Shown one piece after another: positions 27,346-46,600 of a stretch of DNA of 64,000 bases (position 1 is its first letter; every line of letters begins with the position of its first letter). A program made the translations under genes and the position numbers. The notes under the pieces were generated by a model. That model was not told where the DNA came from and ran no database searches. It saw nothing but the letters and a program-made list of their open reading frames with translations. The DNA comes from Caproiciproducens faecalis (lineage in GTDB: Bacteria; Bacillota; Clostridia; Oscillospirales; Acutalibacteraceae), in the NCBI RefSeq assembly GCF_019448085.1, contig NZ_JAGFNZ010000001.1:248001-312000 (forward strand), given 5' to 3'.

Positions 27346-27359
27346 TACAAAGGAAAAAA

Positions 27360-27394: not shown

Positions 27395-27461
27395 GTAACA
27401 GGCTTTCCGAATGCCGGAAACCATTGTATAATGTTCTTAATAGATTGTGGATGGTGAGGAT

Positions 27462-29249
27462 ATGCGTTCTGAGAAGAAGTTAAAAATAAGCTTTTTTGCG
27501 CGGCTTTTTATTTGCTTTGCCGTAATCAGTATTGTACCGGTTGCGGTCTTGGGAACGCTTACCTACATCATTTCCTCCAATGTTTCTTTGCGGAACGTGG
27601 AAAACCAGTCCTCGAAAACCGTGAATAACGCCGCGATGAGCCTGCAGCAGACGATCGGCGAGTACCGGTCCGCGCTGTCGTATTTTTGTACAGACAGTGA
27701 TACCGTACAGAAAATCAGCAATTCTGACGTTACCCCGGAGCAGAGCACCAGCATTTATCAGAAAATGTATATCCTGCTGGCGGGCAAGTCGTCCAATGTA
27801 ACGATGCACTTGATTAAGGCGGACGGAACCTTTCAGATTTCCACCTCTGTGATACCGGAAGCCTACAACATCCGAAACCACCGGGAGTGGGGAATCTTCC
27901 GCGAACTGAACGAATCCTACGGGACCGTCATGTATTCCAACCATTATGTTTCGCCAAGCGGAAAGAACTACTGTATGTCGGTGGCCAACACCATCCGGAA
28001 AAATGGGAAAATCATTGCCTACGCGATTCTCGACATTCCGTCGGATGTGTTTCAGACCGCGCTTGACACGGTCAACGTATCGCTTCCCATCCGGTATGCC
28101 GTTGTGGATCAAAACAACTATTTCCTTTATGACGAGATCTTCAGCGGGCAGAACCAGATTTTTATGGATATGAACTTCCGCAATCAAATGCTGCAGGCAC
28201 AGGACAGCAAAAAACTCTATCTGGAAAAGCCGAAGCGCATCATCACATGGGATGTCACCCCCGGGGACTACCCCCTGCGCGTCATGTCCTCGGTCCCGAT
28301 TGAGCTGGTCGTCATCAACAGCAATTACATTATGGACACCGCCATTGCGGTTGCGCTGGGCGCCATTTTCCTGTGCGTGCTTATTTCGCCCATGCTGGTG
28401 CGCAGCCTGACCAAGCCCCTGAACGCCATTATGAGGACCATGGACAAGGTTCAGAACGGCGATACAAACGCACGCGTCGTCGTACACAATGATGACGAAT
28501 TCGGCTATATCGGGCGCAATCTGAACTCAATGCTTGACCGATTGAATGAGCTGTTTGCCACCAATCTGGAAAAACAGAACCGGCTGCGCCTGGCGGAGCT
28601 GAAATCCCTGTACTCCCAGATCAATCCCCACTTTCTTTACAACACGCTGGATTCCATCAAATGGCTCGCCAAGCTGAACGGCGTGGACGATATTGTGCTG
28701 ATCGTTTCCCAGCTGGGAAAGCTTCTGAAAAACAGTATCCGCAACCAGAAAGAGTCCGTGCAGATTTCGGAGGAAATCGGGCTGGTCGGCAGTTATCTTT
28801 CCATTCAGAAAATACGGTATGACGACAAATTTGATGTTTCCATACAGGTGAATGAAGAGATTATGGACTGTTATGTTCCGAAATTTATTATTCAACCGAT
28901 TGTTGAGAACGCGATTATTCATGGCATTGAAGATAAAATCGGAAAAGCGCACTTAATCATCCGCGGCTGGCGGCAGGACGACAAAATTATCTTTCAGGTG
29001 GAAGATGACGGTGTGGGGATCAGCGAAGAAAAGCTGAACAGCATTAAAAAATCCGCCCACGCGAAAGCGCTTGACAGCGACAGCATCGGCATTGCAAACG
29101 TAGACAAAAGAGTCAAGCTGTATTACGGTCAGGATTACGGGCTAAAAATACAAAGCAAAGAAAATGTCGGCACAATCACACGGATCACAATGCCTTTTTC
29201 AACGATACCGCTTGGAAATGAAAATATGGGAGGTTCCGATCATGATTAG
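27462..29249 (+). CDS. Sensor histidine kinase, YesM family
   Basis: About 595 residues from ATG 27462. TM1 lies near residues 10-30, followed by an extracytoplasmic dCache-like region of about 250 residues. TM2 lies near 295-315, then HAMP (SLTKPLNAIMRTMDKVQNGD). The phosphoacceptor helix is YSQINPHFLYNTLDSIKWLA. The ATPase domain has IIQPIVENAIIHGIED (N box) and VEDDGVGIS (G1). YesM kinases sense extracellular sugars, often through a partner binding protein. Its stop overlaps the response regulator gene by 8 bases, and the importer directly upstream is the likely target. Confidence 0.92.
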   Translation: MRSEKKLKISFFARLFICFAVISIVPVAVLGTLTYIISSNVSLRNVENQSSKTVNNAAMSLQQTIGEYRSALSYFCTDSDTVQKISNSDVTPEQSTSIYQKMYILLAGKSSNVTMHLIKADGTFQISTSVIPEAYNIRNHREWGIFRELNESYGTVMYSNHYVSPSGKNYCMSVANTIRKNGKIIAYAILDIPSDVFQTALDTVNVSLPIRYAVVDQNNYFLYDEIFSGQNQIFMDMNFRNQMLQAQDSKKLYLEKPKRIITWDVTPGDYPLRVMSSVPIELVVINSNYIMDTAIAVALGAIFLCVLISPMLVRSLTKPLNAIMRTMDKVQNGDTNARVVVHNDDEFGYIGRNLNSMLDRLNELFATNLEKQNRLRLAELKSLYSQINPHFLYNTLDSIKWLAKLNGVDDIVLIVSQLGKLLKNSIRNQKESVQISEEIGLVGSYLSIQKIRYDDKFDVSIQVNEEIMDCYVPKFIIQPIVENAIIHGIEDKIGKAHLIIRGWRQDDKIIFQVEDDGVGISEEKLNSIKKSAHAKALDSDSIGIANVDKRVKLYYGQDYGLKIQSKENVGTITRITMPFSTIPLGNENMGGSDHD

Positions 29250-30030
29250 AGTCGTCGTCGTTGAGGATGAAGTTCTGGTGAAGAAGGGTCTGATTTTGAC
29301 CACGGACTGGCAGAAATACGGATGTGAAGTAGTGGGGGAAGCCTCCAACGGGATAGAAGGTGTCCGGGAAATCGAGCGCATCAGGCCCGACATCGTGATT
29401 ACGGATGTCCGTATGCCCGGACTTGACGGGATCGGCATGATCGAGCAGGTCAAGGCTGCAGGGCTGAAGCCGGAGTTTGTAATCATCTCGGGATACAGTG
29501 AGTTTGATTACGCCCGAAAGGCGGTAAAGCTGGGCGTGCGCGATTTTTTAGTGAAACCGATTGATGACGAAGATCTTGACGCCGCACTGAAAAGCACCTG
29601 TGAGGCCGTCCATGACAAGCAGCGGATCAACAAAATTCAGGATAAAATGAATGATGTTTCAGACAGCCGGGTCATGCTGTTCAAGGAGTACCTGCTGGAT
29701 GAAAAAAAGGATAATGACTATGTTGCCCTTGCGGTAAAGCATATCAACTCAAATTATCAGAAGGACATCAGTGTGAAAAGCGTAGCCGACAGCCTGTTTA
29801 TCAGTGAGAGCTATTTGAGCCGTCTTTTCAAAAATCAGGTAGGCCAGACCTTTGGGGATTATCTGGCTTATTACCGCATTAAAAAAGCATGTGAACTGTT
29901 AAAAAAACCGAACGGAAAAATATATGAAGTTGCTAATCTGATCGGCTACAAAGACCAGCGTTATTTCAGTATGATTTTCAAGAAACTGGTGGGGGTCACT
30001 CCGAAAGAGTTCCGCGAAGGTCTGGATTAA
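29242..30030 (+). CDS. Response regulator, YesN type (REC + AraC helix-turn-helix)
   Basis: 262 residues from ATG 29242, with GGGAGG 8 bases upstream. The receiver domain begins IRVVVVEDE and has the phosphorylatable Asp in VITDVRMPGLDG and Lys in FLVKPID. The AraC-type DNA-binding domain starts near residue 160 (HINSNYQKDISVKSVADSLF, SESYLSRLFKNQVGQTF). It lacks the long middle domain of many YesN proteins, so it is a compact version. It should act with the overlapping YesM kinase, most likely on the AfuABC-like operon. Confidence 0.92.
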   Translation: MIRVVVVEDEVLVKKGLILTTDWQKYGCEVVGEASNGIEGVREIERIRPDIVITDVRMPGLDGIGMIEQVKAAGLKPEFVIISGYSEFDYARKAVKLGVRDFLVKPIDDEDLDAALKSTCEAVHDKQRINKIQDKMNDVSDSRVMLFKEYLLDEKKDNDYVALAVKHINSNYQKDISVKSVADSLFISESYLSRLFKNQVGQTFGDYLAYYRIKKACELLKKPNGKIYEVANLIGYKDQRYFSMIFKKLVGVTPKEFREGLD

Positions 30031-30765: not shown

Positions 30766-30830
30766 GAAGGTTTCTCCTTGCTGTTTTACAAAAACCGTCT
30801 GTGAAAGATCAGCCTAAATTTTTAGATATT

Positions 30831-30878
30831 ATTGAAATAAATTTCAATATTTTCTTATGATTTTTAGGTAGTTATAAT
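30831..30878 (+). promoter_or_regulatory. Promoter and palindrome of RuBisCO-like gene A
   Basis: ATTGAAAT-AA-ATTTCAAT (30831-30848) is a perfect palindrome just upstream of the expected -35 position of a TATAAT box at 30873-30878. The transcript start would lie near 30885, some 45 bases before the ATG. The location fits an activator site. The SorC-type regulator encoded at 35421 is the obvious local candidate. Confidence 0.6.
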
Positions 30879-30929
30879 AATGCCATAGGAAATACATAGC
30901 CGTAGAAAACAAAGAAGGAGTGAACAATT

Positions 30930-32249
30930 ATGTATATTGATCCTATTATTATTCAATACCCGGAAGCACTGGAAAAGGACCGTTTTGTCATCGCAACCTA
31001 TTATTGCGCAACAAAACGGAACACCAATATGATGAAGTTTGCTGCCGCTTTGGCATGTGAGCAAACCTGCGGAACCTGGATTCAGGTACCACAGGAAACC
31101 GCCGAGGTGCGTGAGAAATGCATAGGTAGGGTAGTTGGTGTATATGAGACGCCCGCTTACCAGATTGAAATTCCGAATGATGTCGAAGAAAGACATTTTA
31201 TTATCCGTATCGCCTATCCGACAGGCAATTTCGGCAATGCACAGTTTGCCATGCTGTTGAGTGCCGTCATCGGCAACATTTCAAGCTCAGGGAAAGTAAA
31301 GCTGTTAGACCTTGAGTTCCCGGATTCTTTCCTGAATGAGTTCCAGGGCCCGAAATTCGGCGTACCGGGCATCAGGAAACTTCTCGGTGTTTATGATCGT
31401 CCGCTGCTGAACAACATGATTAAACCCTGCACGGGTCTTTCACCGGAAGCAACGGCGGCGCTGGCGTTTGAATCTGCCGTAGGCGGCGTGGATGTAATCA
31501 AGGATGACGAGCTGATCTCCAATCCTGTTCACTGCCCGTTGGTAGAAAGAGTAAAAGCGGTCATGGCCGCTCTGAAACGCGCGGACGAGGAGAAGGGCGA
31601 AAAGACGCTCTATGCCTTTAACATTACGGACAAAACAGAGAATCTGAGAGACAATGCATACAGAGCCATTGAAGCCGGAGCAAACGCACTGCTGCTTAAC
31701 TATAACTCGGTCGGACTGGATGCAAGCAGAATGATCGCCGAGGACAAGAATATTAATGTTCCGATTTTGGGACATTCCGATTATACAGGTGCGGTTTACG
31801 AGTCACCGTGGTCCGGTATGAGCGCGACACTGATTGGCGCGACACTGCCAAGAATGGCCGGTATGGATATGATTATCGCGTTGACACCATACGGCAAATT
31901 CCCAATGATGATGGACACGTTTGTGGACAGCGGATACAAGATGCTGTCACCTCTGGGCAACCTCAAGGCGGTATTCCCAATGCCGGGCGGCGGCACGACA
32001 CAGGGTCATGTGGAAGACGTTGTCAAGAAGTTCGGCAACGATGTTATGATCGCGAGCGGCGCCGGCATCCACGGCCATCCGATGGGGCCGAGGGCCGGAG
32101 CAAAAGCATTCCGTCAGGCAATCGACGCCGCTGTGTCCGGGCAGAACATGCTGGAAGCGGCAAAGCAGCACAAGGAGCTGCAGGCGGCGTTTGACGCTTG
32201 GGGCTACTATCAGGAAAGCAAAACAGGAATCTTTGATCTCAAGGGCTGA
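30930..32249 (+). CDS. RuBisCO-like protein (form IV-type large-subunit homologue), copy A
   Basis: 439 residues with an N-terminal alpha/beta domain (1-about 140) and the RuBisCO TIM barrel. Lys165 in NNMIKPCTG equals RuBisCO Lys175, but Lys177 is replaced by Cys167. The carbamylation/metal triad is kept as Lys191, Asp193, Glu194 (IKDDE). The barrel continues with His282 in GHSD, loop-6-like Lys323 in YGKFPM, and glycine-rich phosphate loops PGGGTTQGH and SGAGIHGHP. Lack of Lys177 and of any phosphoribulokinase or small subunit nearby argues against CO2 fixation. Relatives act as decarboxylases, transcarboxylases, enolases or isomerases on phosphorylated keto acids. AAGGAG precedes the ATG. 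Confidence 0.93.
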   Translation: MYIDPIIIQYPEALEKDRFVIATYYCATKRNTNMMKFAAALACEQTCGTWIQVPQETAEVREKCIGRVVGVYETPAYQIEIPNDVEERHFIIRIAYPTGNFGNAQFAMLLSAVIGNISSSGKVKLLDLEFPDSFLNEFQGPKFGVPGIRKLLGVYDRPLLNNMIKPCTGLSPEATAALAFESAVGGVDVIKDDELISNPVHCPLVERVKAVMAALKRADEEKGEKTLYAFNITDKTENLRDNAYRAIEAGANALLLNYNSVGLDASRMIAEDKNINVPILGHSDYTGAVYESPWSGMSATLIGATLPRMAGMDMIIALTPYGKFPMMMDTFVDSGYKMLSPLGNLKAVFPMPGGGTTQGHVEDVVKKFGNDVMIASGAGIHGHPMGPRAGAKAFRQAIDAAVSGQNMLEAAKQHKELQAAFDAWGYYQESKTGIFDLKG

Positions 32250-32705: not shown

Positions 32706-34271
32706 TTGAAACAGAAAAAATACGTAGTTGGCGTAGACTGTGGAACAACAAGCAGCAAATCTTTTGTTTTTGATCTGGAGGGCAACTGCCTGGGCTCGGG
32801 ACAGATCATGAATCCTCTCATTTATCCGGCGGTTGGACGGGTAGAGTGTGACGGACCGGAACTTATTAAGGTATTGCATGAGACAACCAGGCTTGCCATT
32901 AAGAACAGTGGTGTTGATCCGGAAGAAATTGCCGGGGTAAGCTTCGACATGTTCCGCTGTACCATGGTGACGCGCGATCGGAACGGTGGATTTACCACGC
33001 CGATCATTATCTGGCAGGATCTGCGCAGCGCCGAAATGCTCCCCAAAATGAGGGAGCAGCTTGCGGCTGCGGGAATGACGCCGGACGACTTGTACGATAT
33101 GTGCGGGATGCCGCTGGGCGGTGTTAATCCGTCCGGAAAATTGCAGTGGGTAAAGGAAAAGAAACCGGAGTCGTATGAGAATGCTGTCAGAATCCACACT
33201 ATGATGGGACTTATGACAAAAGCTTATGGTGCCGACGATTATTATGATGACATCAATGACACTCCGTGGCTTCAATTGAACGGACCGGATTTTCAGTACA
33301 GTGAAAATCTGTGTAAGGTATTTGGGGTGGACATTGGCAAACTTGCTCCTCTGAAAACGACGGGAACGATCATCGGAAAGGTATCTCCCGAAATCTCGGA
33401 AAAGACCGGACTTGCGGTTGGGACTCCATTGGTCATGGGTACAGGCGACCAGCAGGCGGGATGCCTCGGCTGCGGCTGCGTCAAGGAAGGCACAGGCTAT
33501 GCCTGCGGCGGTACGGCGGGTATTACGGCTGGAAAATCCACCAGGTTGCTGAGGGATCCGGCAAAGAAATGCTACATACTGGGAACACCTGATGGAGCAT
33601 GGGTCATGGAGGGGCAGGCGAATGCCGCGGGCAGCGCTTTCAAGTGGTTTAAGGGCGAATTCTGTGATGTGGAAAGTATGACCGCGAAGTACCTGGGGCT
33701 GGAGGCATATGACTTTCTGACGAAAGCGGCCCAGAAGTCCGGCCCGGGTGCGAACGGATGCTTCTTCCTTCCCTACCTGCAGGGGGCGAACACGCCCAAT
33801 TACAACGCGGATGCGCGCGGCACTTACATAGGGATGACCTTTGCCCATACGAGGAACGATCTTGTCCGAGCGACGATGGAGGGGATCTGCTTCGATATCC
33901 GCGATATGCTGGAAGCCATGGTCAAAGGAAATGTTCCCAATTTTGATGTTGTCCGGCTGACCGGGGGAGTCGCCCGGTCCGGTTTCTGGTGCCAGATGCA
34001 GGCCGATATTTACAACAGACCCTGTGAGACCGTGGCGGTGGAAGAGGCTACGGGACTTGGGTGCGCCATGGTCGCGGCTGTCGGTGTCGGAATTTATCAG
34101 GATTTTGAGGAAGCCGCCGAACACATGGTCAAGGTTACAAAACGCTACGAACCGAATCCAAAAAATGTTCCAATTTATGAAGATGCTTACCAGACCTGGA
34201 AAAAAGTGTATCAGGCGCTCAACGGAGAAGCCTATTCCGCCGTTACGGCGTTTCAAGAAAAATACCGCTGA
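32706..34271 (+). CDS. FGGY family carbohydrate kinase 1 (xylulokinase-like)
   Basis: 521 residues from TTG 32706 with a GGGGGGA ribosome site. The N-terminal phosphate-binding loop is GVDCGTTSSKSFVFD and the second ATPase-fold domain has MGTGDQQAGCLGCG, followed by the adenosine-loop region near ITLTGGVARSGFWCQMQADI-type residues (about 418-436). It transfers phosphate from ATP to a sugar, polyol or sugar acid. It is related to the second kinase at 41743; both end with a YEPNPK motif. Its position between two RuBisCO-like genes suggests that it makes their phosphorylated substrate or a precursor. The sugar cannot be named. Confidence 0.88.
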   Translation: MKQKKYVVGVDCGTTSSKSFVFDLEGNCLGSGQIMNPLIYPAVGRVECDGPELIKVLHETTRLAIKNSGVDPEEIAGVSFDMFRCTMVTRDRNGGFTTPIIIWQDLRSAEMLPKMREQLAAAGMTPDDLYDMCGMPLGGVNPSGKLQWVKEKKPESYENAVRIHTMMGLMTKAYGADDYYDDINDTPWLQLNGPDFQYSENLCKVFGVDIGKLAPLKTTGTIIGKVSPEISEKTGLAVGTPLVMGTGDQQAGCLGCGCVKEGTGYACGGTAGITAGKSTRLLRDPAKKCYILGTPDGAWVMEGQANAAGSAFKWFKGEFCDVESMTAKYLGLEAYDFLTKAAQKSGPGANGCFFLPYLQGANTPNYNADARGTYIGMTFAHTRNDLVRATMEGICFDIRDMLEAMVKGNVPNFDVVRLTGGVARSGFWCQMQADIYNRPCETVAVEEATGLGCAMVAAVGVGIYQDFEEAAEHMVKVTKRYEPNPKNVPIYEDAYQTWKKVYQALNGEAYSAVTAFQEKYR

Positions 34272-34372
34272 GCGATCCGTAAGAACCGACGGAAGTTTCC
34301 CGCAGTTTGTAAGGATCGGGCGGAAGCTTCCTTATACGGATTTTATCAATCTATATTACAGGAGGAATGAAA

Positions 34373-35209
34373 ATGGTAAACGCTGTTAGTGTGATAGGAG
34401 CATTTGCAGGAGGATGTATTGGAGCGCTGGTCGGAGGAAACCCGGCTTTTGTCATCGCGGGTATTGTCGGTGTCACTTTTCTTTCTATGGGAAACGTGCC
34501 GGCGGCAGCGGTTCTGCAGCAGACTGTGGAATACACGCTGTTCACCCCATGTATCTGTTTTGCGGGCGGCGTGGCGGCGCTGGCCTTTGCCGCCAATAAA
34601 AGGAAATACGATATTAATGGCTTGAACCTCAATAAAGCGCTGGGTTTTACAAAGGACCCGATGACGGTTTTGGTTGGGGGAATTTTCGGCCTGTTCGGTT
34701 TTCTGTGCCTGAACCTGGCCGTCTATTTCAAGCTGCCGCTGGACGCGGGCGCTTTGACGGTGATGCTTTCCGGATTTATCGTCAGGCTGCTGTTCGGCAA
34801 CCGTACGATTGTAAATCCCAAATTAAATGAAAACCTTCTTTTTCATAAGGAAGGCATCTCTCACTGGGTCTTTAAATTACTGGTCGGTCTGGTGGTTGCG
34901 GCCGTGGCTGCCTATGCCGTCCATCTGACAGGCATTGCGACGACCGGATTTTACATCAGTGCCCTTTCTCTTATCTTTTTCCTCAGGGACGGCGATTTTC
35001 CCGTTACCCACCATGTTACCCTGATCGCGGGCTACGCGACCCTTCGCTCCGGCAGCGTGCTGACAGGAGTCCTGTTTGGGGTGCTTGCCTGCATTGTGTT
35101 TGAACTGTATCAGAATATCATCAACTCCAATGTGGACTCCCATATTGACGCTCCCGCGTCCACGATCGCTACTTTAAGCCTCGTTATATTCACTGTCTTC
35201 CCTGCCTGA
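34373..35209 (+). CDS. Unrecognised integral membrane protein
   Basis: 278 residues from ATG 34373, 7 bases after GGAGG; an ATG six bases earlier is too close to the site. About eight hydrophobic helices are visible, beginning VIGAFAGGCIGALVGG and ending TIATLSLVIFTVFPA, with Gly-rich turns (GGIFGLFGF, GVLFGVLACIVFELYQN). There is no ATP-binding or redox motif and I do not recognise the family. It is the only transporter-like protein in the RuBisCO-like locus and is flanked by the kinase and the regulator, so a role in uptake of the substrate is plausible but unproven. Confidence 0.75.
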   Translation: MVNAVSVIGAFAGGCIGALVGGNPAFVIAGIVGVTFLSMGNVPAAAVLQQTVEYTLFTPCICFAGGVAALAFAANKRKYDINGLNLNKALGFTKDPMTVLVGGIFGLFGFLCLNLAVYFKLPLDAGALTVMLSGFIVRLLFGNRTIVNPKLNENLLFHKEGISHWVFKLLVGLVVAAVAAYAVHLTGIATTGFYISALSLIFFLRDGDFPVTHHVTLIAGYATLRSGSVLTGVLFGVLACIVFELYQNIINSNVDSHIDAPASTIATLSLVIFTVFPA

Positions 35210-35349: not shown

Positions 35350-35420
35350 CAAAGTAGACGCTGTTCAATACCTAATGGTGGATTTTTATGTGCCGGATAT
35401 CACTATGGGAGGAAAGAGTA

Positions 35421-36392
35421 ATGAAAAGCGAAGTGTACAATCAGTCTGTTTGCATTATGGATTCCGTTGCGTATCTGTACTACATTGAAAAAAGGACTCT
35501 TGCAGAAATTTCGCAGGATTTGGGCATTTCCAAGCCTACCGTCTCGCGCCTTCTGAAGAGAGCGGTAGACGAGGGCGTCATTGAATTCAAAATTTCCAAG
35601 CCGTTTGCGGACTGCATTGATCTGGAGAAAAAAATCATGAGCCGCTACGGTCTGAAATCGGTGATCGTCGTCCCGGTATTGGAACCGGAAAAGCTTCTGA
35701 ATCCAGAGGAGACCAAGAAAAGGGTCGCTCTGGAAGGGGCCCGCTATGTACAGCGGATCGTTACGGACGACGATATTCTCGGCATGAGCTGGGGCGGTAC
35801 GATGTATCATCTGATCCAGTATCTGAACCCCTGTCGCAAGGTGAACGCCAAAGTCATCACAATGCACGGCAGCATTGCCGACTGCGACGAAAAGCTGGCG
35901 GTCAACAACCTTGTACGGCGTGCCGCCATGGCCTTCGGCGGAAAAAATGTATCGATATGCGCGAACGGCCTTGCCGACAGCAGGGAACATTGCCATCAGA
36001 TTCAGGATGACGCGAAATTCCAGAAAATATTTTCCTTACTGAAATACATTAATATCTCCGTAAGCGGGGTCGGGGTGTTTTATCCCAGCGTGGATTCCCT
36101 GCTGGCTTCCTCCGGATATCTGAAGCCCCATGAAATGAAGGAACTGATTGAGCAGAAGGTTTGCTGCGACTTTGCTCTCCGTTTCATCAACAGGGACGGT
36201 CAGGAGTGTGAAAGCAGCCTAAAGGACAGGACCCTTTCCATCTGCCTTGATACATACAGGCAGATTCCCTGTAAAATCGTGGTGGCCTCCGGCAGCAAAA
36301 AGGCGTATGCCATCCGTGCCCTGCTGAAGGGAAATCTGGTCGACGTTCTTGTCATTGATTACTATCTTGCAAGCGCCCTGAACGCGCTTTGA
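35421..36392 (+). CDS. SorC/DeoR-like sugar-binding transcriptional regulator
   Basis: 323 residues from ATG 35421 with GGGAGGAAAG upstream. The N-terminal helix-turn-helix is RTLAEISQDLGISKPTVSRL, followed by EGVIEFKI, both hallmarks of the SorC family. Residues after about 55 form the sugar-phosphate-binding domain (SWGGTMYHL, MHGSIADCDEKL, VSGVGVFYPS). SorC proteins respond to phosphorylated sugars or polyols and bind palindromes. It is encoded 261 bases upstream of the RuBisCO-like copy B repeat and is the best candidate for binding the palindromes before both copies. Confidence 0.88.
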   Translation: MKSEVYNQSVCIMDSVAYLYYIEKRTLAEISQDLGISKPTVSRLLKRAVDEGVIEFKISKPFADCIDLEKKIMSRYGLKSVIVVPVLEPEKLLNPEETKKRVALEGARYVQRIVTDDDILGMSWGGTMYHLIQYLNPCRKVNAKVITMHGSIADCDEKLAVNNLVRRAAMAFGGKNVSICANGLADSREHCHQIQDDAKFQKIFSLLKYINISVSGVGVFYPSVDSLLASSGYLKPHEMKELIEQKVCCDFALRFINRDGQECESSLKDRTLSICLDTYRQIPCKIVVASGSKKAYAIRALLKGNLVDVLVIDYYLASALNAL

Positions 36393-36770: not shown

Positions 36771-38090
36771 ATGTATATTGATCCTATTATTATTCAATAC
36801 CCGGAAGCACTGGAAAAGGACCGTTTTGTCATCGCAACCTATTATTGCGCAACAAAGCGGAACACCAATATGATGAAGTTTGCTGCCGCTTTGGCATGTG
36901 AGCAAACCTGCGGAACCTGGATTCAGGTACCACAGGAAACCGCCGAGGTGCGTGAGAAATGCATAGGTAGGGTAGTTGGTGTATATGAGACGCCCGCTTA
37001 CCAGATTGAAATTCCGAACGATGTCGAAGAAAGACATTTTATTATCCGTATCGCCTATCCGACAGGCAATTTCGGCAATGCACAGTTCGCCATGCTGTTG
37101 AGTGCCGTTATCGGCAACATTTCAAGCTCAGGGAAAGTAAAGCTGTTAGACCTTGAGTTCCCGGATTCTTTCCTGAATGAGTTCCAGGGCCCGAAATTCG
37201 GCGTACCGGGCATCAGGAAACTTCTCGGTGTTTATGATCGTCCGCTGCTGAACAACATGATTAAACCCTGCACGGGTCTCTCACCGGAAGCAACGGCGGC
37301 ACTGGCGTTTGAATCTGCCGTAGGCGGCGTGGATGTAATCAAGGATGACGAGCTGATCTCCAATCCTGTTCACTGCCCGTTGGTAGAAAGAGTAAAAGCG
37401 GTCATGGCCGCTCTGAAACGCGCGGACGAGGAGAAGGGCGAAAAGACGCTCTATGCCTTTAACATTACGGACAAAACAGAGAATCTGAGAGACAATGCAT
37501 ACAGAGCCATTGAAGCCGGAGCAAACGCACTGCTGCTTAACTATAACTCGGTCGGACTGGATGCAAGCAGAATGATCGCCGAGGACAAGAATATTAATGT
37601 TCCGATTTTGGGACATTCCGATTATACAGGTGCGGTTTACGAGTCACCGTGGTCCGGTATGAGCGCGACACTGATTGGCGCGACACTGCCAAGAATGGCC
37701 GGTATGGATATGATTATCGCGTTGACACCATACGGCAAATTCCCAATGATGATGGACACGTTTGTGGACAGCGGATACAAGATGCTGTCACCTCTGGGCA
37801 ACCTCAAGGCGGTATTCCCAATGCCGGGCGGCGGCACAACACAGGGTCATGTGGAAGACGTTGTCAAGAAGTTCGGCAACGATGTTATGATCGCGAGCGG
37901 CGCCGGCATCCACGGCCATCCGATGGGGCCGAGGGCCGGAGCAAAAGCATTCCGTCAGGCAATCGACGCCGCTGTGTCCGGGCAGAACATGCTGGAAGCG
38001 GCAAAGCAGCACAAGGAGCTGCAGGCGGCGTTTGACGCTTGGGGTTACTATCAGGAAAACAAAACAGGAATCTTTGATCTCAAGGGCTGA
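36771..38090 (+). CDS. RuBisCO-like protein, copy B
   Basis: 439 residues, identical to copy A except Asn430 in place of Ser430. Of the nine nucleotide differences eight are silent, so both copies are under constraint or were recently made uniform by gene conversion. The active-site picture is the same: Lys165, Cys167, Lys191, Asp193, Glu194, His282, Lys323. AAGGAG precedes the ATG. This copy heads the run of GlpA-like, GlpB-like and DUF1667 genes, so it may be co-expressed with a polyol-phosphate dehydrogenase, whereas copy A precedes kinase 1. Confidence 0.93.
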   Translation: MYIDPIIIQYPEALEKDRFVIATYYCATKRNTNMMKFAAALACEQTCGTWIQVPQETAEVREKCIGRVVGVYETPAYQIEIPNDVEERHFIIRIAYPTGNFGNAQFAMLLSAVIGNISSSGKVKLLDLEFPDSFLNEFQGPKFGVPGIRKLLGVYDRPLLNNMIKPCTGLSPEATAALAFESAVGGVDVIKDDELISNPVHCPLVERVKAVMAALKRADEEKGEKTLYAFNITDKTENLRDNAYRAIEAGANALLLNYNSVGLDASRMIAEDKNINVPILGHSDYTGAVYESPWSGMSATLIGATLPRMAGMDMIIALTPYGKFPMMMDTFVDSGYKMLSPLGNLKAVFPMPGGGTTQGHVEDVVKKFGNDVMIASGAGIHGHPMGPRAGAKAFRQAIDAAVSGQNMLEAAKQHKELQAAFDAWGYYQENKTGIFDLKG

Positions 38091-38311: not shown

Positions 38312-39754
38312 ATGTATGATGTTGTAATCATCGGCGCCGGGGTCACCGGGTGCTGTATTGCAAGGGAATTATCACGGTATCAGCTCAATGCGTGTGTGGT
38401 GGAAAAGGGTGATGATGTTGCGTCCGGCACTTCAAAGGCGAACAGCGGAGTCATCCATTCGGGGTTTGATGCAAAGCCGGGCTCACTGATGGCGAAATTA
38501 AATGTGGAAGGCAACGCTCTTCTCTGGAAATTGGCGGAAGAACTGGATTTTCCGGTGAAGAAGAACGGTGCTCTGGTGGTTGCCACCGACGAGGAGGAAA
38601 TAAAGCATCTGGAGCTTCTGCTCGATCAGGCCCGTCAAAACGGAGTTCCGGGCGTACGGATCCTTACCCGTGAGGAAGTCATGAAAATGGAGCCCAACCT
38701 TACGGATAAAACGGTGGCTGCTCTTTACGCGCCTACGGGTGGAGTGATCGACCCGTTCAACCTTGCCATTGCCATGGGGGAAAATGCCAATGTGAACGGG
38801 ATGGAATTCCGGTTTGAGACGGAGGTTCTGCAGATCCATAAAAAGGGCGAAAAATACGCGCTGGAAACCAATCACGGAACCATTGAGACGAAGTGCGTCG
38901 TCAATGCGGCCGGTGTTTATGCGGATAAATTCCACAACATGGTGAGCGAAGAAAAAATACATATTACCGCGCGCAAAGGAGAATATCTGCTGTTTGACAA
39001 AACGGTGGGGGACCTTTTCACCGCTTCCGTTTTCCCAGTTCCGGGAAAAATGGGGAAGGGTATCCTGATTGCGCCCACCGTCCATGGGAATTTGTACGTC
39101 GGCCCCACCGCCAACGACGTGGAGGATAAGGAATCAATCAATACCACACAGGATATCCTGCAGCTTCTGACAGAAAAGGCAAAGGCCAATCATTTGTCCA
39201 AGAAGGTGATTCCCATGAATAAGGTGATTACCTCTTTCGCGGGCCTGCGTGCGCATCAGGACAAACATGATTTCATTGTGCAGGAGGTTCCGGATGCCGA
39301 GTGCTTCTTCGACGCCGCGGGAATCGAATCCCCCGGACTGACCAGTTCGCCCGCGATTGGGGCAATGATGGCAAAAATGGTATCCGAAAAGCTTAACTTA
39401 AAGAAAAAAGAGAAATTTGTTTCAACCAGAAAAGGCGTCTTAAAGCCGGAAAAGCTTACGGATGAGGAAAGAAATCAACTGATTAAGAAAAATCCGGCAT
39501 ACGGTAATATCATTTGCCGTTGTGAAATGGTTACTGAAGGAGAAATTGTGGACGCAATTCACCGGCCTTTAGGTGCAAAATCCATGGACAGTATCAAAAG
39601 AAGAACCCGCGCGGGCATGGGCCGGTGTCAGGCCGGCTTCTGCACACCCAGAACGATGGAGGTTCTTTCGAGGGAACTGGGAATCGGCATGACCGAAATT
39701 ACCAAAAAGGGCGGCGGCTCCCAGCTTGTTGTCGGTAAAACCAAAGAACTGTAA
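38312..39754 (+). CDS. GlpA-like FAD-dependent glycerol/polyol-3-phosphate dehydrogenase with BFD [2Fe-2S] domain
   Basis: 480 residues. The N-terminus VVIIGAGVTGCCIAREL is the FAD dinucleotide fold, followed by SKANSGVIHSGFDAKPGS, the DAO-family loop of glycerol-3-phosphate dehydrogenases. The C-terminal 70 residues form a BFD-like iron-sulfur domain with CRCE...GRCQAGFC cysteines. A GGAGGAG ribosome site precedes the ATG. In Firmicutes such proteins act with the next two gene products as an anaerobic glycerol-3-phosphate dehydrogenase. Here the substrate may instead be the phosphorylated product of one of the two FGGY kinases. Confidence 0.9.
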   Translation: MYDVVIIGAGVTGCCIARELSRYQLNACVVEKGDDVASGTSKANSGVIHSGFDAKPGSLMAKLNVEGNALLWKLAEELDFPVKKNGALVVATDEEEIKHLELLLDQARQNGVPGVRILTREEVMKMEPNLTDKTVAALYAPTGGVIDPFNLAIAMGENANVNGMEFRFETEVLQIHKKGEKYALETNHGTIETKCVVNAAGVYADKFHNMVSEEKIHITARKGEYLLFDKTVGDLFTASVFPVPGKMGKGILIAPTVHGNLYVGPTANDVEDKESINTTQDILQLLTEKAKANHLSKKVIPMNKVITSFAGLRAHQDKHDFIVQEVPDAECFFDAAGIESPGLTSSPAIGAMMAKMVSEKLNLKKKEKFVSTRKGVLKPEKLTDEERNQLIKKNPAYGNIICRCEMVTEGEIVDAIHRPLGAKSMDSIKRRTRAGMGRCQAGFCTPRTMEVLSRELGIGMTEITKKGGGSQLVVGKTKEL

Positions 39755-39782: not shown

Positions 39783-41057
39783 ATGATGAAGTCATATGAA
39801 ATTGTTATCATCGGCGGGGGACCCGCCGGGCTTGCGGCAGCTTTGGAGGCAAAGGAGTCGGGCGTCGATAGTATTCTGATTCTGGAAAGGGACAGGGAAC
39901 TCGGCGGGATTCTGAACCAGTGCATCCACAACGGGTTCGGACTGCATACTTTTAAAGAAGAACTGACCGGACCGGAATACGCTTATCGGTTTATTGAGAA
40001 GGTTCTTGAGGAGAAGATAGAGTATAAGCTCAATACCATGGTTATGGATATTACGCAATCTAAAATCGTTACCTATATGAACAAGACGGAAGGTTTGGTA
40101 CATATTCAGGCAGAGTCGATCATATTGGCGATGGGCTGCCGGGAAAGACCCAGGGGAGCACTGAATATCCCCGGATTCCGGCCGGCCGGCATTTTCTCTG
40201 CGGGAACCGCCCAGCGGCTTGTCAATATGGAAGGCTATATGCCCGGCCGGGAGGTTGTCATTCTGGGTTCGGGAGACATCGGACTGATTATGGCGCGGAG
40301 ATTGACGCTGGAGGGTGCCCATGTCAAGGTGGTTGCTGAGATCATGCCGTATTCGGGCGGATTGAAGCGGAATATTGTACAGTGCCTCGACGATTTCGGC
40401 ATTCCTCTCCGGTTAAGCCATACCATTGTGGATATCCGGGGGGTTGACCGTGTGGAAGGTGTCACCATCGCACAGGTGGATGAACACATGAAACCTATTC
40501 CGGGGACCGAGGAGGACTACGACTGCGATACCATTCTGCTTTCCGTGGGCCTGATTCCGGAAAACGAGCTGTCAAATAAGATAAACGTTCAGATGAACGC
40601 TGTTACCAGCGGGCCAGTTGTCAATGAAAGTCTGGAAACCAATATCGAGGGTGTATTTGCCTGCGGAAATGTCCTTCATGTGCATGACCTGGTGGATTAT
40701 GTTTCTGAAGAAGCCGCTTTGGCGGGAAAGAACGCCGCGAAATATGTACTTGGAAAATTCGACGGTCAGGAAGCTCCCGCGCACACAGTTACGCTGGAGG
40801 CGGTGGACGGGGTTCGCTACACCGTGCCGAAAACCGTGAATATCGGTCGCATGGCGGATACGGTCAAGGTGCGTTTCCGTGTAGGAAACGTCTTTAAGGA
40901 CAGTTATGTCAGCGTTTATTATGATGATGAACGGGTACTGCACCGCAAAAAAATGATTATGGCTCCGGGGGAAATGGAGGATATTACTCTTGACAGGAAA
41001 AGACTGCAGGAATATCCCGACTTAAAGAAAATTACCGTTAAGATCGAAAGGGAGTAA
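39783..41057 (+). CDS. GlpB-like FAD/NAD(P)-dependent oxidoreductase
   Basis: 424 residues; two adjacent ATG codons (39783, 39786) could serve as start. IVIIGGGPAGLAAALEA is the FAD-binding fold, MGCRERPRGALNIPG the redox loop, and VVILGSGDIGLIMARRL the second (NAD) Rossmann loop. VNESLETNIEGVFACGN is the FAD C-terminal signature. Members of this family are the partner of GlpA-like and DUF1667 proteins, passing electrons on to NAD or the quinone pool. The gap to the previous gene is 28 bases and to the next 8. Confidence 0.9.
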   Translation: MMKSYEIVIIGGGPAGLAAALEAKESGVDSILILERDRELGGILNQCIHNGFGLHTFKEELTGPEYAYRFIEKVLEEKIEYKLNTMVMDITQSKIVTYMNKTEGLVHIQAESIILAMGCRERPRGALNIPGFRPAGIFSAGTAQRLVNMEGYMPGREVVILGSGDIGLIMARRLTLEGAHVKVVAEIMPYSGGLKRNIVQCLDDFGIPLRLSHTIVDIRGVDRVEGVTIAQVDEHMKPIPGTEEDYDCDTILLSVGLIPENELSNKINVQMNAVTSGPVVNESLETNIEGVFACGNVLHVHDLVDYVSEEAALAGKNAAKYVLGKFDGQEAPAHTVTLEAVDGVRYTVPKTVNIGRMADTVKVRFRVGNVFKDSYVSVYYDDERVLHRKKMIMAPGEMEDITLDRKRLQEYPDLKKITVKIERE

Positions 41058-41065
41058 GGAGCATC

Positions 41066-41440
41066 ATGGAGAAGAGAGAACTGATCTGTATCGGCTGCCC
41101 GCTCGGCTGCATGATTACCGTAAATATGCAGGATGGTAAGGTGGTGAAGGTAACCGGGAATACCTGCCCACGCGGAGAAAAATATGCTTTGAAGGAAGTT
41201 ACATGCCCAACAAGAATTGTAACGTCTTCGGTAGGGGTTTCCGGCGGGGACATTCGTGTGCTGTCAGTAAAAGCAAGGGAAGCGGTTCCCAAAGATAAAA
41301 TATTTGATTGTGCAAATGCTTTAAAATCCATCAAAGTGGCCGCTCCGGTCAGAATCGGAGATATCGTTTTGAAGGACGCGGCGGGGACAGGGATTCCTTT
41401 TGTGGCTACCAAAAATGTAAAATCCGGCGGTACCCTCTGA
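41066..41440 (+). CDS. DUF1667 cysteine-rich protein
   Basis: 124 residues. The N-terminal CIGCPLGC and the later TCPRGEKYALKEVTCPTR provide four or five cysteines suited to an iron-sulfur cluster, as in the first domain of molybdopterin oxidoreductases. The DUF1667 family almost always follows GlpA-like and GlpB-like flavoproteins and is thought to be the third subunit of that complex. It ends the three-gene run and is followed by a terminator. Confidence 0.9.
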   Translation: MEKRELICIGCPLGCMITVNMQDGKVVKVTGNTCPRGEKYALKEVTCPTRIVTSSVGVSGGDIRVLSVKAREAVPKDKIFDCANALKSIKVAAPVRIGDIVLKDAAGTGIPFVATKNVKSGGTL

Positions 41441-41742: not shown

Positions 41743-43302
41743 ATGGCGAAATATTTAATTGGTCTGGACAGCGGAACAACGGGACTCAGGAGCAAGATTT
41801 ATGATTTGAGCGGGAACGTAATCGCGCAGGGATACCGAGAGTATGATTGTGTTTATTATAAACCGGGATGGATCGATCAGGACATCAACATGATGGTCGA
41901 AGCGATGTACGACTCGCTGGCGGAGGTTGTGGCAAAAGGGAAAAAAGCCGGAGTGGACCCCAATGAAATTGCGTCAATCGGCTTATCTACCCAGCGTATT
42001 CTACATATGTATGTTGATAAGAACGGCAACGTCATGCGCAACGGCATGGGAATTTCCTGGCAGGATTCCCGCTGTGAGGCGGAGGCAAAATGGATGAGTG
42101 AATTCGGCGACGAATACACTCAGATTACGGGTCTTCCAGTAGGTACCGCATGGGGAAGCGGTAAAGTGAAATGGGTTTTGAATAACGAGCGGGAGACTTA
42201 TGAGAAAGCTTCCAAAATTCTGACCACGCAGGAATATTTTCTGTATAAGCTCGGCGCAAGAGACGGCTGGTTCCAGGACTGGTCGAACGCTTCTTATTTT
42301 GGGCTGCTCGATGTACAGACAATGGAGTTCAGCGACCCGCTTCTGAAACGGTTCGGCATCAGCAAAGATAAATTGCCCCGTCTGGTCGGTTCCGGCTGGC
42401 AGGTAGGAACAATCGACAAGTATGCGAGCGAGCGCACCGGGTTACCAATCGGTATGCCGGTTTGTACCGGCGGCGGTGACCAGCAGTGTGCCGGAATTGG
42501 CGCGGGCGTCATACATGAAGGTCTGTGTGAGGTGACCTTTGGGACCTCCGGGGTCAGTTTGGCCGCTCTCGATACACCTAAGCACGATCCCAACAAGAAG
42601 GTTTCCCTTTCGGCTGCTGCTTTCCCGGAAAAGGCGTGGGAGTCAGAAGGACTGCAGATGGCGGCCGCCAGCAGCTACCGTTGGTTCCGCGACACCGTCG
42701 GTCAGGTATGCAAGATGATTGAACCAATTACACAGACCAGCCCTTACCAGATTCTTGACAGACACGCGGAAAAGGCACCCGTTGGCAGCAACGGCGTCAT
42801 CTTCCAGCCGTATCTGGCCGGGTCCAACTGTCCGAACTACGACGGCACGGCCCGCGGCGCTTTCCTGGGACTTAGCTTTAAGAGCGATTTCGCATCTCTG
42901 GCGCGCTCGGTGCTGGAAGGCGTAACCCTGGAAGCCAGGAGTGTTTTGGAGGCGTTCTATTCCTTTATAGATATCGATGAAATCATCCTAAGCGGCGGCG
43001 CGACTAACTCCAAACTTTGGTGCCAGATTCAGGCGGATGTTTACAATCGTCCCGCAACAATGCTTAAGGAAGGCGAATGCACGGTTATGGGCGCGGCTAT
43101 TTTGGGCGGCGTGGGCGCCGGCGTGTTCAAGAGCGTACAGGAAGGCGTAGACACAATGGTTAAGAAGGTAAGTACCTATGAGCCAAATCCGAAGACAGTA
43201 CCGCAGTATAACGAACTGTACGACTTGTTCAAGACCGCCTACAGCTCGCTTGCGCAGGGAGATTTCTATCAGAAACTAAATAATTTTACTGAAAATCATT
43301 AA
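41743..43302 (+). CDS. FGGY family carbohydrate kinase 2 (xylulokinase/glycerol kinase-like)
   Basis: 519 residues with GGGAGG before the ATG. The phosphate loop is IGLDSGTTGLRSKIYD and the second-domain marker is TGGGDQQCAGIGAGV; ILSGGATNSKLWCQIQADVY is the FGGY C-terminal signature near residue 415. It is a distant paralogue of kinase 1, sharing the GDQQ motif, the NPK-rich tail and the leader element. Its operon partners are a glycerol-1-phosphate dehydrogenase homologue and two HAD phosphatases. A glycerol, tetritol or pentulose substrate is possible. Confidence 0.88.
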   Translation: MAKYLIGLDSGTTGLRSKIYDLSGNVIAQGYREYDCVYYKPGWIDQDINMMVEAMYDSLAEVVAKGKKAGVDPNEIASIGLSTQRILHMYVDKNGNVMRNGMGISWQDSRCEAEAKWMSEFGDEYTQITGLPVGTAWGSGKVKWVLNNERETYEKASKILTTQEYFLYKLGARDGWFQDWSNASYFGLLDVQTMEFSDPLLKRFGISKDKLPRLVGSGWQVGTIDKYASERTGLPIGMPVCTGGGDQQCAGIGAGVIHEGLCEVTFGTSGVSLAALDTPKHDPNKKVSLSAAAFPEKAWESEGLQMAAASSYRWFRDTVGQVCKMIEPITQTSPYQILDRHAEKAPVGSNGVIFQPYLAGSNCPNYDGTARGAFLGLSFKSDFASLARSVLEGVTLEARSVLEAFYSFIDIDEIILSGGATNSKLWCQIQADVYNRPATMLKEGECTVMGAAILGGVGAGVFKSVQEGVDTMVKKVSTYEPNPKTVPQYNELYDLFKTAYSSLAQGDFYQKLNNFTENH

Positions 43303-43368: not shown

Positions 43369-44880
43369 ATGTTAAATCGATTAATGCCTCCCGTATTTAA
43401 GTACGACGTTGGCAATATGAAGGATTTGAATGAGCGGATTAAACGCTGGCCGGATTACGATCAGATTCCGAAAATAGATCTGGAGGACGTGATCGTCGGC
43501 AAGGACGCTATTGAGCAACTGCCTGACGCACTGCAGTCTTTGCATGTCCAGGCCGGGCAAAGGGTGCTCGCGGTAATGGACGAGACGGTCATTCTCCGCA
43601 AGGGAGAAAAAGTAAAGGAACAGGTACAGGCGCTGCTGAGCCACGCCGGGTACGCTGTTGAAAGGCTTGTCCTTAAGGGGGACGAGTACGGGATCGTTCA
43701 CGCGGACGCAAACCAGGTTCAAACGGTTCAGTCGCATCTGGATAAAACCTGCGCGGTCATTTCCATCGGCTCGGGAACCGTTACGGATATTGCAAAGCAC
43801 GCATGCTTTCTTTATCGAAATGAAAACAACTGTGAACGTATTCCACTGATTTCCTTTATGACGGCCAATACGGTACCGGCCTATACGTCCTTTTCCTCCA
43901 TCATTTCCAAGGACGGTGTCAAACGGACATGGCCTTCCCGTACACCGAACATAGTTGTGATGGACGTACAGACTCTGATGGATTGTCCGCTGCACTATAC
44001 AGTGGGTGGCGTGGGCGATCTTTTTCCGGTGTTTGGTGCTTTCGCGGATTGGTATCTGGCCGACTGCATGGGTACCGCAACGGTACTGGACGGCTGCTGG
44101 CGTATTGTGGACGACATCAAAGAGCTTTTGATTCCGTATATGGAAGAAGTGGCCAATCGGTCTTTTGTCGGAATGGAAGTATTGGGGAAGTGCCTGTTGG
44201 TAACCGGGCTCACTATGACGTTTGCACGAGATTCCGTGCCGGTTTCCGGCTATGAGCATGTCATCAGTCATATGCTGGATATGACTGCGAATTACGACAA
44301 GAGAAAGACAGGGGTACACGGTCAGCAGGTGGGCGAATCGCAAATTCTCGCTTTAATCAATATGGAAAAGCTCGTCACCCGTCTTAATAGAAAACTGGCG
44401 GATGAAGAAATCGATATTAGCAATTGCTATCCTTCAGAGGAAGAAATGAAGAAAAAGGTTCTGGATACATTTCAGTCAATCGACCCCTCGGGAAAAATGG
44501 GCAGCGAATGCTGGAACGATTACAGCCAGAAGCTGAAAAAATGGAACGATAACCGCCCGAAATTTGAAGCCTTCTTAAAGGAGTGGCCCAAACACCGCAC
44601 CGTTCTCAAAGAGCTGCTTCCTCACACAGCGCTTGACTGTGCACGGGCGTTGAATAAAGCGAAGCACCCACTGCTTTTTGACGAGCTGGACGCGCCTGTC
44701 ACGGAAGAACGCTTCCGTTGGGCCATGCGCTGTGCCAATTTAATGCGCAAGCGCTTTACTTCCGCTGATTTGACCTATTTCCTTGGATGGTATGATGAGG
44801 ATTGGGAAAATGACATTATCAGCCGATATTATGAAATAGTGAGAACTGTGCGTGCTGAGAATTCCTCGGCGGCACACTGA
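43369..44880 (+). CDS. AraM/EgsA-like sn-glycerol-1-phosphate dehydrogenase homologue (Fe-ADH superfamily), metal site altered
   Basis: 503 residues, about 100 longer than B. subtilis AraM. ISIGSGTVTDIAKHA is the NAD(P) glycine-rich loop and SGYEHVISHMLDM and VHGQQVGE hold the two metal-binding histidines. The motif that should read TAxSMDGYTS reads TANTVPAYTS: the metal-ligand aspartate is Pro170. The enzyme may therefore bind metal differently or act on another substrate. AAGGAAGGAG precedes the ATG. As in the araL-araM pair of Bacillus, an AraL/NagD-type phosphatase gene follows. Confidence 0.8.
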   Translation: MLNRLMPPVFKYDVGNMKDLNERIKRWPDYDQIPKIDLEDVIVGKDAIEQLPDALQSLHVQAGQRVLAVMDETVILRKGEKVKEQVQALLSHAGYAVERLVLKGDEYGIVHADANQVQTVQSHLDKTCAVISIGSGTVTDIAKHACFLYRNENNCERIPLISFMTANTVPAYTSFSSIISKDGVKRTWPSRTPNIVVMDVQTLMDCPLHYTVGGVGDLFPVFGAFADWYLADCMGTATVLDGCWRIVDDIKELLIPYMEEVANRSFVGMEVLGKCLLVTGLTMTFARDSVPVSGYEHVISHMLDMTANYDKRKTGVHGQQVGESQILALINMEKLVTRLNRKLADEEIDISNCYPSEEEMKKKVLDTFQSIDPSGKMGSECWNDYSQKLKKWNDNRPKFEAFLKEWPKHRTVLKELLPHTALDCARALNKAKHPLLFDELDAPVTEERFRWAMRCANLMRKRFTSADLTYFLGWYDEDWENDIISRYYEIVRTVRAENSSAAH

Positions 44881-44932
44881 TAAAATCAGACTTCTTGACG
44901 CGGGGAAAAGAGGGAGTCTTTGGAGGTTAACC

Positions 44933-45751
44933 ATGAGCGACAATCGTATTAAGGTAAACGCGGATCCAGACCATCTTCTGGACAGAATTAAATGCTTTGC
45001 GCTGGATATGGACGGAACGATCTATCTGGGAGAACAGTGGATAGACGGTGCAAGGGACTTTTTGAACCGGGTGGAAGAAACTGGACGAAAATATGTTTTT
45101 ATGACCAATAACTCTTCTAAAAGTGCGGATGTATATTTTGATAAGCTGGAGCGTATGGGGTTGAAAATTCGCCCTGAGCAGCTGATTACCTCTGGTCATG
45201 CGACCGTGGATTTTCTAAAGAAAAATTTTCCGGGCAAAAAAGTTTTCTTGCTGGGGAACCCCATGCTGACCGCGGAGTTTGAAAAAATGGGAATTCCGCT
45301 GGACGACGAGCATCCGGATTTGGTTATTACAGCTTTCGATACCTCTCTGGATTACAAAAAAATGTGCAAGGTCTGCGATTTCGTCAGAGAGGGGCTTCCG
45401 TACATAGCGACGCATCCGGATTTTAACTGCCCGACGGAGACCGGGTTTATTCCGGACGCTGGTTCCATTCACGCCTTTATAGAAGCTTCTACCAAACGCC
45501 GTCCAGACAAGGTAATCGGAAAGCCGAACCGTGAGATTGTAGAGTATACGCTGAAAATGACCCATTGCACGGAAAAAGAGACCGCTATGGTGGGTGACCG
45601 TCTGTATACGGATATTGCGGCCGGGGTCAACAACGGGTTGACGGGAATCTTTGTTCTCAGCGGCGAGGCACAGCTAAAGGACCTTCCGGATTCGGATGTC
45701 AAGCCTCATCTTATTTTTGATTCCGTCAAACAGATGATTCCCTGTTTGTAA
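44933..45751 (+). CDS. HAD-IIA hydrolase (NagD/AraL-like sugar phosphatase)
   Basis: 272 residues from ATG 44933, with TGGAGG 6 bases upstream. Motif I is FALDMDGTIYLG, motif II FMTNNSSKS, the C2A cap lies between about 80 and 190, motif III Lys is in KVIGKPNREI, and motif IV is MVGDRLYTDIAAG. The family dephosphorylates sugar and polyol phosphates with broad range. Its location after the AraM-like gene mirrors the araL-araM order of Bacillus in reverse. It may relieve accumulation of phosphorylated intermediates. Confidence 0.88.
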   Translation: MSDNRIKVNADPDHLLDRIKCFALDMDGTIYLGEQWIDGARDFLNRVEETGRKYVFMTNNSSKSADVYFDKLERMGLKIRPEQLITSGHATVDFLKKNFPGKKVFLLGNPMLTAEFEKMGIPLDDEHPDLVITAFDTSLDYKKMCKVCDFVREGLPYIATHPDFNCPTETGFIPDAGSIHAFIEASTKRRPDKVIGKPNREIVEYTLKMTHCTEKETAMVGDRLYTDIAAGVNNGLTGIFVLSGEAQLKDLPDSDVKPHLIFDSVKQMIPCL

Positions 45752-45793: not shown

Positions 45794-46600
45794 ATGTCCA
45801 TCAAATTGATTGCACTGGATGTTGACGGAACCCTGACCGATGAAGCGGGCAGAATCAGTACGGAAAATGCTTCCGCGGTAAAAGCGGCCATGGAATCCGG
45901 AATTCAAGTGATTCTGTCTACGGGCAGACCGCTTCAGGGAGTAGAGTCCATCTGCCGGGAGCTGGGGATGAACGGCCCGCTGATTCTGGGAAACGGGGCG
46001 CTGGTCCTGTCGGGAGATGAAGTATGGTATCAGGATTTTCTGGACCCGGAGGATTTGCGCTCTGTTTACGAACAGGGGATTACGGTTGGCGGCATCTCTA
46101 TGCTGGCCTTCCAGCCAGAGATCATCCCCTTCTGGTTTCCGCAGGATATGGACAAAAACTGGCTGTCGAATATTCTGGATTCATTCCGGCTTTACAAGCG
46201 GTTCGATGTTCCTACACCGGCCGACCTGCCGCTTGAGCGGGTAAACAAGGTCATGTTTTTGGGTGACGCGCAGTCGGTCGCACAGGCGCTGGCCACATGG
46301 CCGGAGAAAATCGGGCATCTTGCGGCGGGTCGTTCCTACCCCTATTTGGGAGAGGTCAATACGCCGACGGCCAACAAGGGCAAAGCGCTGTCCATTGTGT
46401 GCGGGCGGCTGGGGCTTTCTCCGGAGGAGGTCATGGCGGTCGGGGACGGCGAAACGGATTTGCCCATGCTCGATTTTGCGGGAACAGCGGTATTTGTTCA
46501 CCGGGGCTCCGCAATTCCGCCGCTGCCCGGTGGAGTGATTGTGGTTCCAACGGAAGAGCGCGATCGCGGCGTCGCCTGGGCGCTGGCGCACTGTATATGA
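45794..46600 (+). CDS. HAD-IIB hydrolase (Cof-type sugar phosphatase)
   Basis: 268 residues. Motif I IALDVDGTLTDEAGRIS, motif II ILSTGRPLQG, motif III Lys in NKGKALSIVCGRLG and motif IV VMAVGDGETDLPML with the C2B cap between them. The family includes flavin and sugar phosphatases of broad specificity. The ribosome site is weak (TTAGGA). It lies 42 bases after the NagD-like gene and before a terminator, so it is likely the last gene of the kinase 2 operon. Confidence 0.88.
   Translation: MSIKLIALDVDGTLTDEAGRISTENASAVKAAMESGIQVILSTGRPLQGVESICRELGMNGPLILGNGALVLSGDEVWYQDFLDPEDLRSVYEQGITVGGISMLAFQPEIIPFWFPQDMDKNWLSNILDSFRLYKRFDVPTPADLPLERVNKVMFLGDAQSVAQALATWPEKIGHLAAGRSYPYLGEVNTPTANKGKALSIVCGRLGLSPEEVMAVGDGETDLPMLDFAGTAVFVHRGSAIPPLPGGVIVVPTEERDRGVAWALAHCI

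Follow-up and report, generated by a model that had tools for sequence, protein, structure and literature searches.

A RuBisCO-like protein with cysteine at the Lys177 position, its clade and its association with polyol-type gene clusters

Described RuBisCO-like proteins and the window protein

Few functions have been assigned to RuBisCO-like proteins (RLPs), which show RuBisCO chemistry besides CO2 fixation. The nearest characterized clade to the protein described here is MtnW (YkrW, 2,3-diketo-5-methylthiopentyl-1-phosphate enolase), which has the same fold and is approximately 36–40% identical. Both have the carbamate/metal triad, the loss of Arg295 from the P2-phosphate site and a monophosphate substrate (presumed for our protein), but MtnW carries Lys98, Ser305 and a KGM motif where the window protein has Asn116, Lys323 and KPC. 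Lys98 is the residue that we take, from the literature on the Geobacillus enzyme, to be the general base of MtnW. An RLP from Alicyclobacillus acidocaldarius that was deposited as MtnW (PDB entry 4NAS) shares the Cys at the Lys177 position, within a KAC motif; it differs from the window protein in grouping with MtnW and in having the MtnW-type Lys at the Asn123 position and Ser at the Lys334 position.

OiaX/OiaT (3-oxo-isoapionate-4-phosphate decarboxylase/transcarboxylase-hydrolase) are likewise encoded together with a kinase in a cluster for sugar catabolism, and OiaX retains the loop-6 Lys and has lost Lys177 (Ala in OiaX), but the branch is distant, the kinase belongs to another family and Arg is present at the Arg295 position. 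The DeepYkr RLP of Rhodopseudomonas palustris (PDB entry 3QFW) shares the absence of Lys177, and DeepYkr acts on a ketose monophosphate; it differs in having KDDH rather than KDDE, a shortened KP-Q motif and a branch of its own. Carbonyl migration on a ketose monophosphate by an RLP has a precedent in the DeepYkr RLPs (PMC5893883). An RLP of unknown function has been reported beside sugar-type genes in Candidatus Hakubanella (Actinobacteria), with relatives in Moorella (PMC7325909).

The window analysed here is a stretch of 64,000 nucleotides from Caproiciproducens faecalis. It contains an open reading frame of 439 codons for amino acids with full-length RuBisCO Pfam matches (PF00016, 182.9 bits; PF02788, 53.5 bits). 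With both Pfam domains, a match to the RuBisCO fold and replacements at Lys177, Arg295, His298, His327 and Ser379, its product is by sequence a form IV RLP. The AlphaFold2 model has a mean pLDDT of 93. The best fold matches of this model in the PDB are MtnW structures (2OEM and 2OEK; TM 0.86/0.93), as are the best PDB sequence matches. The best NCBIfam matches were also MtnW models, at 360.7 and 309.4 bits; their cut-offs of 409 and 513.6 were not reached. The OiaX model gave 216 bits (cut-off 700, not reached) and the Rubisco models scored far below their cut-offs.

A second, near-identical copy of the gene is present in the window (Table 1). The copies differ at nine of 1320 nucleotides, their active-site residues are identical and the sole residue difference is Ser/Asn near the C-terminus. 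About 109 bp of 5' DNA is common to both (positions 30821–30929 for the first copy), with three mismatches, after which similarity ends; the ribosome-binding region lies in this shared stretch, as the promoter probably does. The pair stems from a recent event, duplication or gene conversion, in which the gene's own promoter region was carried along. The two copies lie 5.8 kb apart in one cluster.

Phylogeny and active-site residues

A maximum-likelihood tree was built from 113 rows; it was calculated quickly and some of its branches are long, which makes its deep order provisional. The window RLP falls within a broad clade (99% SH-aLRT for an 89-row core) that adjoins the MtnW/4NAS branch without being part of it and is separate from the OiaX-type, Photo (1TEL and 2QYG) and DeepYkr RLPs. 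The phylogeny that the initial annotation had proposed as a check thus separates the Cys clade from the characterized RLP branches. Its members belong to Bacillota, Actinomycetota, Chloroflexota, Thermodesulfobacteriota, Myxococcota and Spirochaetota and to several lineages of archaea, Archaeoglobus among them. Actinobacterial MAGs related to Candidatus Hakubanella also fall in the clade, and from these relatives the Hakubanella RLP likely belongs to it as well. In the tree the window RLP is closest to a Propionibacteriaceae MAG and Acetobacterium wieringae (99%), whereas RLPs from its own genus are 45% identical and are placed in another subclade, which suggests that the window RLP was acquired horizontally.

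Residue correspondences were taken from an alignment with form I RuBisCO (spinach numbering), in which 19 RuBisCO active-site residues were checked. Thirteen are kept: Glu60 (Glu44 in the window protein), Thr65 (Thr49), Trp66 (Trp50), Asn123 (Asn116), Lys175 (Lys165), Lys201 (Lys191), Asp203 (Asp193), Glu204 (Glu194), His294 (His282), Lys334 (Lys323), Gly380 (Gly354), Gly381 (Gly355) and Gly403 (Gly377). The six that are changed are Lys177 (Cys167), Arg295 (Ser283), His298 (Thr286), His327 (Ile316), Ser379 (Gly353) and Gly404 (Ala378); in addition, Ala296 corresponds to Asp284. The alignment confirmed what had been read from the sequence alone, namely the presence of Lys165, Lys191, Asp193 and Glu194, Cys167 in place of Lys177 and HSD at His294-Arg295-Ala296. 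The second gene copy, the retention of Lys323 and Asn116 and the changes in the P2 site are additions to that description.

Across an 85-sequence alignment Lys165, Lys191, Asp192, Asp193, Glu194, His282 and Gly355 are invariant. Asn116 is present in 95 of 96 rows and Lys323 in 80 of 96 (the MtnW residues there are Lys98 and Ser305); Lys323 and Glu44 are missing from the subclade that is accompanied by RpiB- and TIM-type isomerases (the RpiB/TIM subclade). Although close to MtnW, the clade retains a larger part of the RuBisCO catalytic set (Asn123 and Lys334); it occurs widely among anaerobic bacteria and archaea. The enolization chemistry proposed earlier on the strength of the metal triad is likely, by inference, from the invariance of the metal and carbamate residues and the retention of Asn123 and Lys334.

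Arg295, His327 and Ser379, which bind the second phosphate (P2) in RuBisCO, are all replaced, and the P1 site is largely kept (Thr49, Trp50, Lys323, Gly355 and Gly377). From this pattern the substrate is probably a monophosphate. A genuine RuBP carboxylase, to which the 13 retained residues including Asn123, Lys175, the metal triad and Lys334 might point, has next to no chance of being correct: the RuBP site is not intact, with Lys177, Arg295, His298, His327 and Ser379 all replaced, the Rubisco models match poorly, and the genome contains neither an R15P isomerase-type protein nor a clear phosphoribulokinase, its two PRK-family matches resembling uridine/nucleoside kinases. The initial annotation had also considered carboxylation unlikely, and on these grounds that holds; its own argument, the loss of Lys177, does not, because every RLP group compared lacks this residue and its loss alone is uninformative.

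In the groups aligned, Lys177 is replaced by Met/Val/Ile, Ala, Asn, Ser, Cys or Gln. The residue is Met/Val/Ile in MtnW, Cys in 4NAS, Ala in OiaX, Ser in the Chimaeribacter RLP and Asn in 3NWR and the Azospirillum and Photo RLPs, and the motif of DeepYkr 3QFW is shortened to KPQ. Cys167 itself was found in 26 of 26 clade members in a sample of genomes from the same phylum chosen regardless of motif. In the class sample it was present in 14 of 19, the remainder having Asp or Asn; the Asp/Asn rows fall in a single seven-row subclade in which every other catalytic residue is kept. A tally of 86 of 97 from a larger contig scan is biased, as the scan pattern itself specified [CD] at this position. 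The window protein has the MIKPC motif, KDDE, Asn at the Asn123 position and monophyly with the other members of the Cys167 clade.

The cysteine had been described as unusual; it is instead what members of a large clade normally have at this position, and it occurs in 4NAS too; a peculiarity of the window protein is ruled out. That it could mark a subfamily stands in the weak sense that it marks a clade. Whether Cys167 is common to a characterized clade was also checked, and the Cys clade has no functional assignment.

In the model, residue 167 directly follows the strand 159–163, as expected for the Lys177 position, and alignment and predicted secondary structure together place position 167 on the active-site face. 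An active role as a thiol acid/base, a nucleophile or a redox switch in strict anaerobes would fit its near-universal occurrence in the clade and its alignment with a position of the active site, at the C-terminal end of barrel strand 1. Such a role is nevertheless quite unlikely, given Asp or Asn in the otherwise catalytically intact seven-row subclade and Met, Ala, Asn, Ser or Gln in other RLPs. From the alignment, we read Cys167 as a clade-specific neutral pocket residue and not as a catalytic nucleophile. Position 284, beside His282, looks more like a specificity switch than does position 167: in the window subclade 18 of 19 rows carry Asp there, in the Sporomusa subclade eight of nine carry Cys, and in the RpiB/TIM subclade all 19 carry Ala.

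Gene cluster and neighbourhoods of related proteins

The cluster is listed in gene order in Table 1. For the product of the hydrophobic 280-residue reading frame, a possible transporter, searches gave no Pfam or NCBIfam match and no homologue across the related RLP loci. Homologues of the SorC/DeoR-type regulator occur in the RLP neighbourhood at 23 of 95 loci, and homologues of the glycerol-1-phosphate dehydrogenase-like enzyme adjoin RLPs at two other loci (70% identical at L112, Amazonia massiliensis; 37% at L053). Because a true GlpK is encoded elsewhere in the genome (742.6 bits, contig C2), neither of the FGGY kinases in the cluster is the housekeeping glycerol kinase.

Table 1. Features of the RLP gene cluster in order along the window
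Feature	Position	Strand	Basis
RuBisCO-like protein, copy 1	30930..32249	+	Pfam, alignment, model
FGGY carbohydrate kinase, nearest xylulokinase/gluconokinase models, below both cut-offs	32706..34271	+	Pfam, NCBIfam
Hydrophobic 280-residue protein, probably integral membrane	34367..35209	+	Sequence
SorC/DeoR-type sugar-phosphate-binding transcriptional regulator	35388..36392	+	PF04198
RuBisCO-like protein, copy 2	36771..38090	+	Near-identical to copy 1
GlpA-like FAD-dependent oxidoreductase, DAO + BFD [2Fe-2S]	38312..39754	+	Pfam, NCBIfam
GlpB-like FAD-dependent oxidoreductase	39783..41057	+	Pfam; homologues in related loci
DUF1667 protein, usual partner of the GlpA/GlpB-like pair	41066..41440	+	Pfam
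Second FGGY carbohydrate kinase, XylB-like (303 bits, below cut-off), not GlpK	41743..43302	+	Pfam, NCBIfam
sn-Glycerol-1-phosphate dehydrogenase-like enzyme (Fe-ADH_2)	43369..44880	+	Pfam, NCBIfam
Two HAD-family phosphatases	44852..45751 and 45794..46600	+	

Directly upstream of the cluster (23085–30030) are genes for an Fbp/Afu-type ABC transporter (binding protein, ATPase and fused permease), a sensor kinase and an AraC-type response regulator; the transporter could import a phosphorylated or related sugar.

Methionine salvage, with the RLP as the DK-MTP-1P enolase MtnW, is suggested by the best NCBIfam, PDB sequence and fold matches, but is very improbable. The model scores fall short of the curated cut-offs, the Lys98 base and Ser305 are replaced by Asn116 and Lys323, and the RLP lies outside the MtnW branch. 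No IF-2B-family protein (MtnA/R15P isomerase-type) is encoded in the genome, which therefore has no MtnA, and the ARD family is represented there solely by a partial match of 27 bits. The neighbours are of FGGY/Glp type with no mtn genes nearby, whereas the mtnW of Priestia sits in an mtn operon.

The same kinds of neighbour recur at related loci. FGGY kinases were found no more than six genes from the RLP at 50 of 95 loci; they account for 11.2% of genes one or two places from the RLP and 1.5% of those five or more away, and the corresponding shares for GlpA/B/C-type redox proteins are 7.5% and 0.5%. At four loci (L077, L082, L086 and L088, from two Sporomusa, Desulfosporosinus and a Selenomonadales MAG) the RLP lies inside a true glycerol operon, among genes for GlpA, GlpK, a GlpF-type MIP (aquaglyceroporin), GlpB, GlpC and a G3P antiterminator. 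The order in Sporomusa (L077:8245-16984) is glpA-RLP-glpK-glpF-glpB-glpC-glpP, with both GlpA and GlpK above the NCBIfam cut-offs.

Sugar catabolic clusters with kinases are also the setting expected for an OiaX/OiaT-like enzyme that decarboxylates or hydrolyses a phosphorylated 3-oxo sugar acid, and the loop-6 Lys (Lys323) shared with OiaX would make C–C bond chemistry possible. We regard this function as unlikely but not far-fetched: the OiaX model matched well below its cut-off, the branches are separate, OiaX has Arg where the window RLP has Ser283, and the DUF1537-type four-carbon acid sugar kinase partner is replaced here by FGGY kinases and polyol-phosphate dehydrogenases.

Candidate reaction and scope of the clade

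Once relatives are compared, Cys for Lys177 is ordinary, and the larger result is a functionally unassigned RLP clade tied to polyol catabolism. The reading we favour, tentatively and at a little under an even chance, is that the RLP is a carbamylated-Lys/Mg2+-dependent ketose-monophosphate isomerase/epimerase in sugar-alcohol catabolism. Carbamylation, enolization and a monophosphate substrate are features that we infer; a tetrulose or pentulose phosphate is our favoured guess for the substrate, taken solely from the neighbouring genes.

In the proposed scheme, an FGGY kinase and the GlpA/GlpB-type polyol-phosphate dehydrogenases would act upstream of the RLP and convert a polyol to a ketose monophosphate, which would be held by the P1-type site. 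The carbamate on Lys191 would take a proton next to the carbonyl, an Mg-bound enediolate would form, and its reprotonation at the neighbouring carbon would result in carbonyl migration or epimerization. With Asn at the position of the MtnW Lys98 and Lys at that of Ser305 (the RuBisCO state), the aligned residues make proton abstraction by carbamylated Lys191, as in RuBisCO, more likely than the MtnW mechanism.

A related function would be a 1,3-isomerase of 5-methylthio- or 5-deoxy-ribulose-1-phosphate in MTA/5'-deoxyadenosine salvage, as in the DeepYkr RLPs of Rhodospirillum/Rhodopseudomonas. The conversion of a ketose-1-phosphate to a ketose-5-phosphate documented for those proteins (PMC5893883) is chemistry of the same type, but KDDH for KDDE, the KP-Q/M motif and the separate branch of DeepYkr, together with the lack of MtnA in this genome, make this role improbable; nor did a methylsulfurylase-type cupin come to notice beside the gene.

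For the ketose-monophosphate isomerase/epimerase reading, a wider formulation is that the large clade (Bacillota, Actinomycetota, Chloroflexota, Thermodesulfobacteriota and archaea) would be a new functional class of RuBisCO-fold ketose-monophosphate isomerases/epimerases in glycerol-type polyol catabolism, with the Cys as its signature. We consider this possible but doubtful. Neighbourhoods vary across the clade: at six loci the RLP is accompanied by both RpiB- and TIM-type isomerases, and in other subclades by a class III aminotransferase, by UPF0261 and PEP-hydrolase-like genes or by a saccharopine-dehydrogenase-like protein. The clade may therefore hold several functions. In a literature search that left the main RLP reviews aside no functional paper on the Cys167 clade was found, and an earlier description is possible. 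The kinases and glycerol-3-phosphate-type dehydrogenases, which in some acetogens belong to a real glycerol operon, provide a genetic lead to the function of the clade in culturable organisms.

Three smaller observations were made among the related loci. A single in-frame stop was reported inside the match for some RLP relatives (L019, L152, L156, L157, L158 and L160), which may reflect a pseudogene, an assembly error or an end effect. A trio of PEP-hydrolase-like, UPF0261 and PEP-hydrolase-like genes is conserved beside the RLP at L052, L056, L057, L058, L063, L064 and L065. A class III aminotransferase resembling glutamate-1-semialdehyde aminotransferase adjoins the FGGY kinase and the RLP at 19 loci (including L097–L104).
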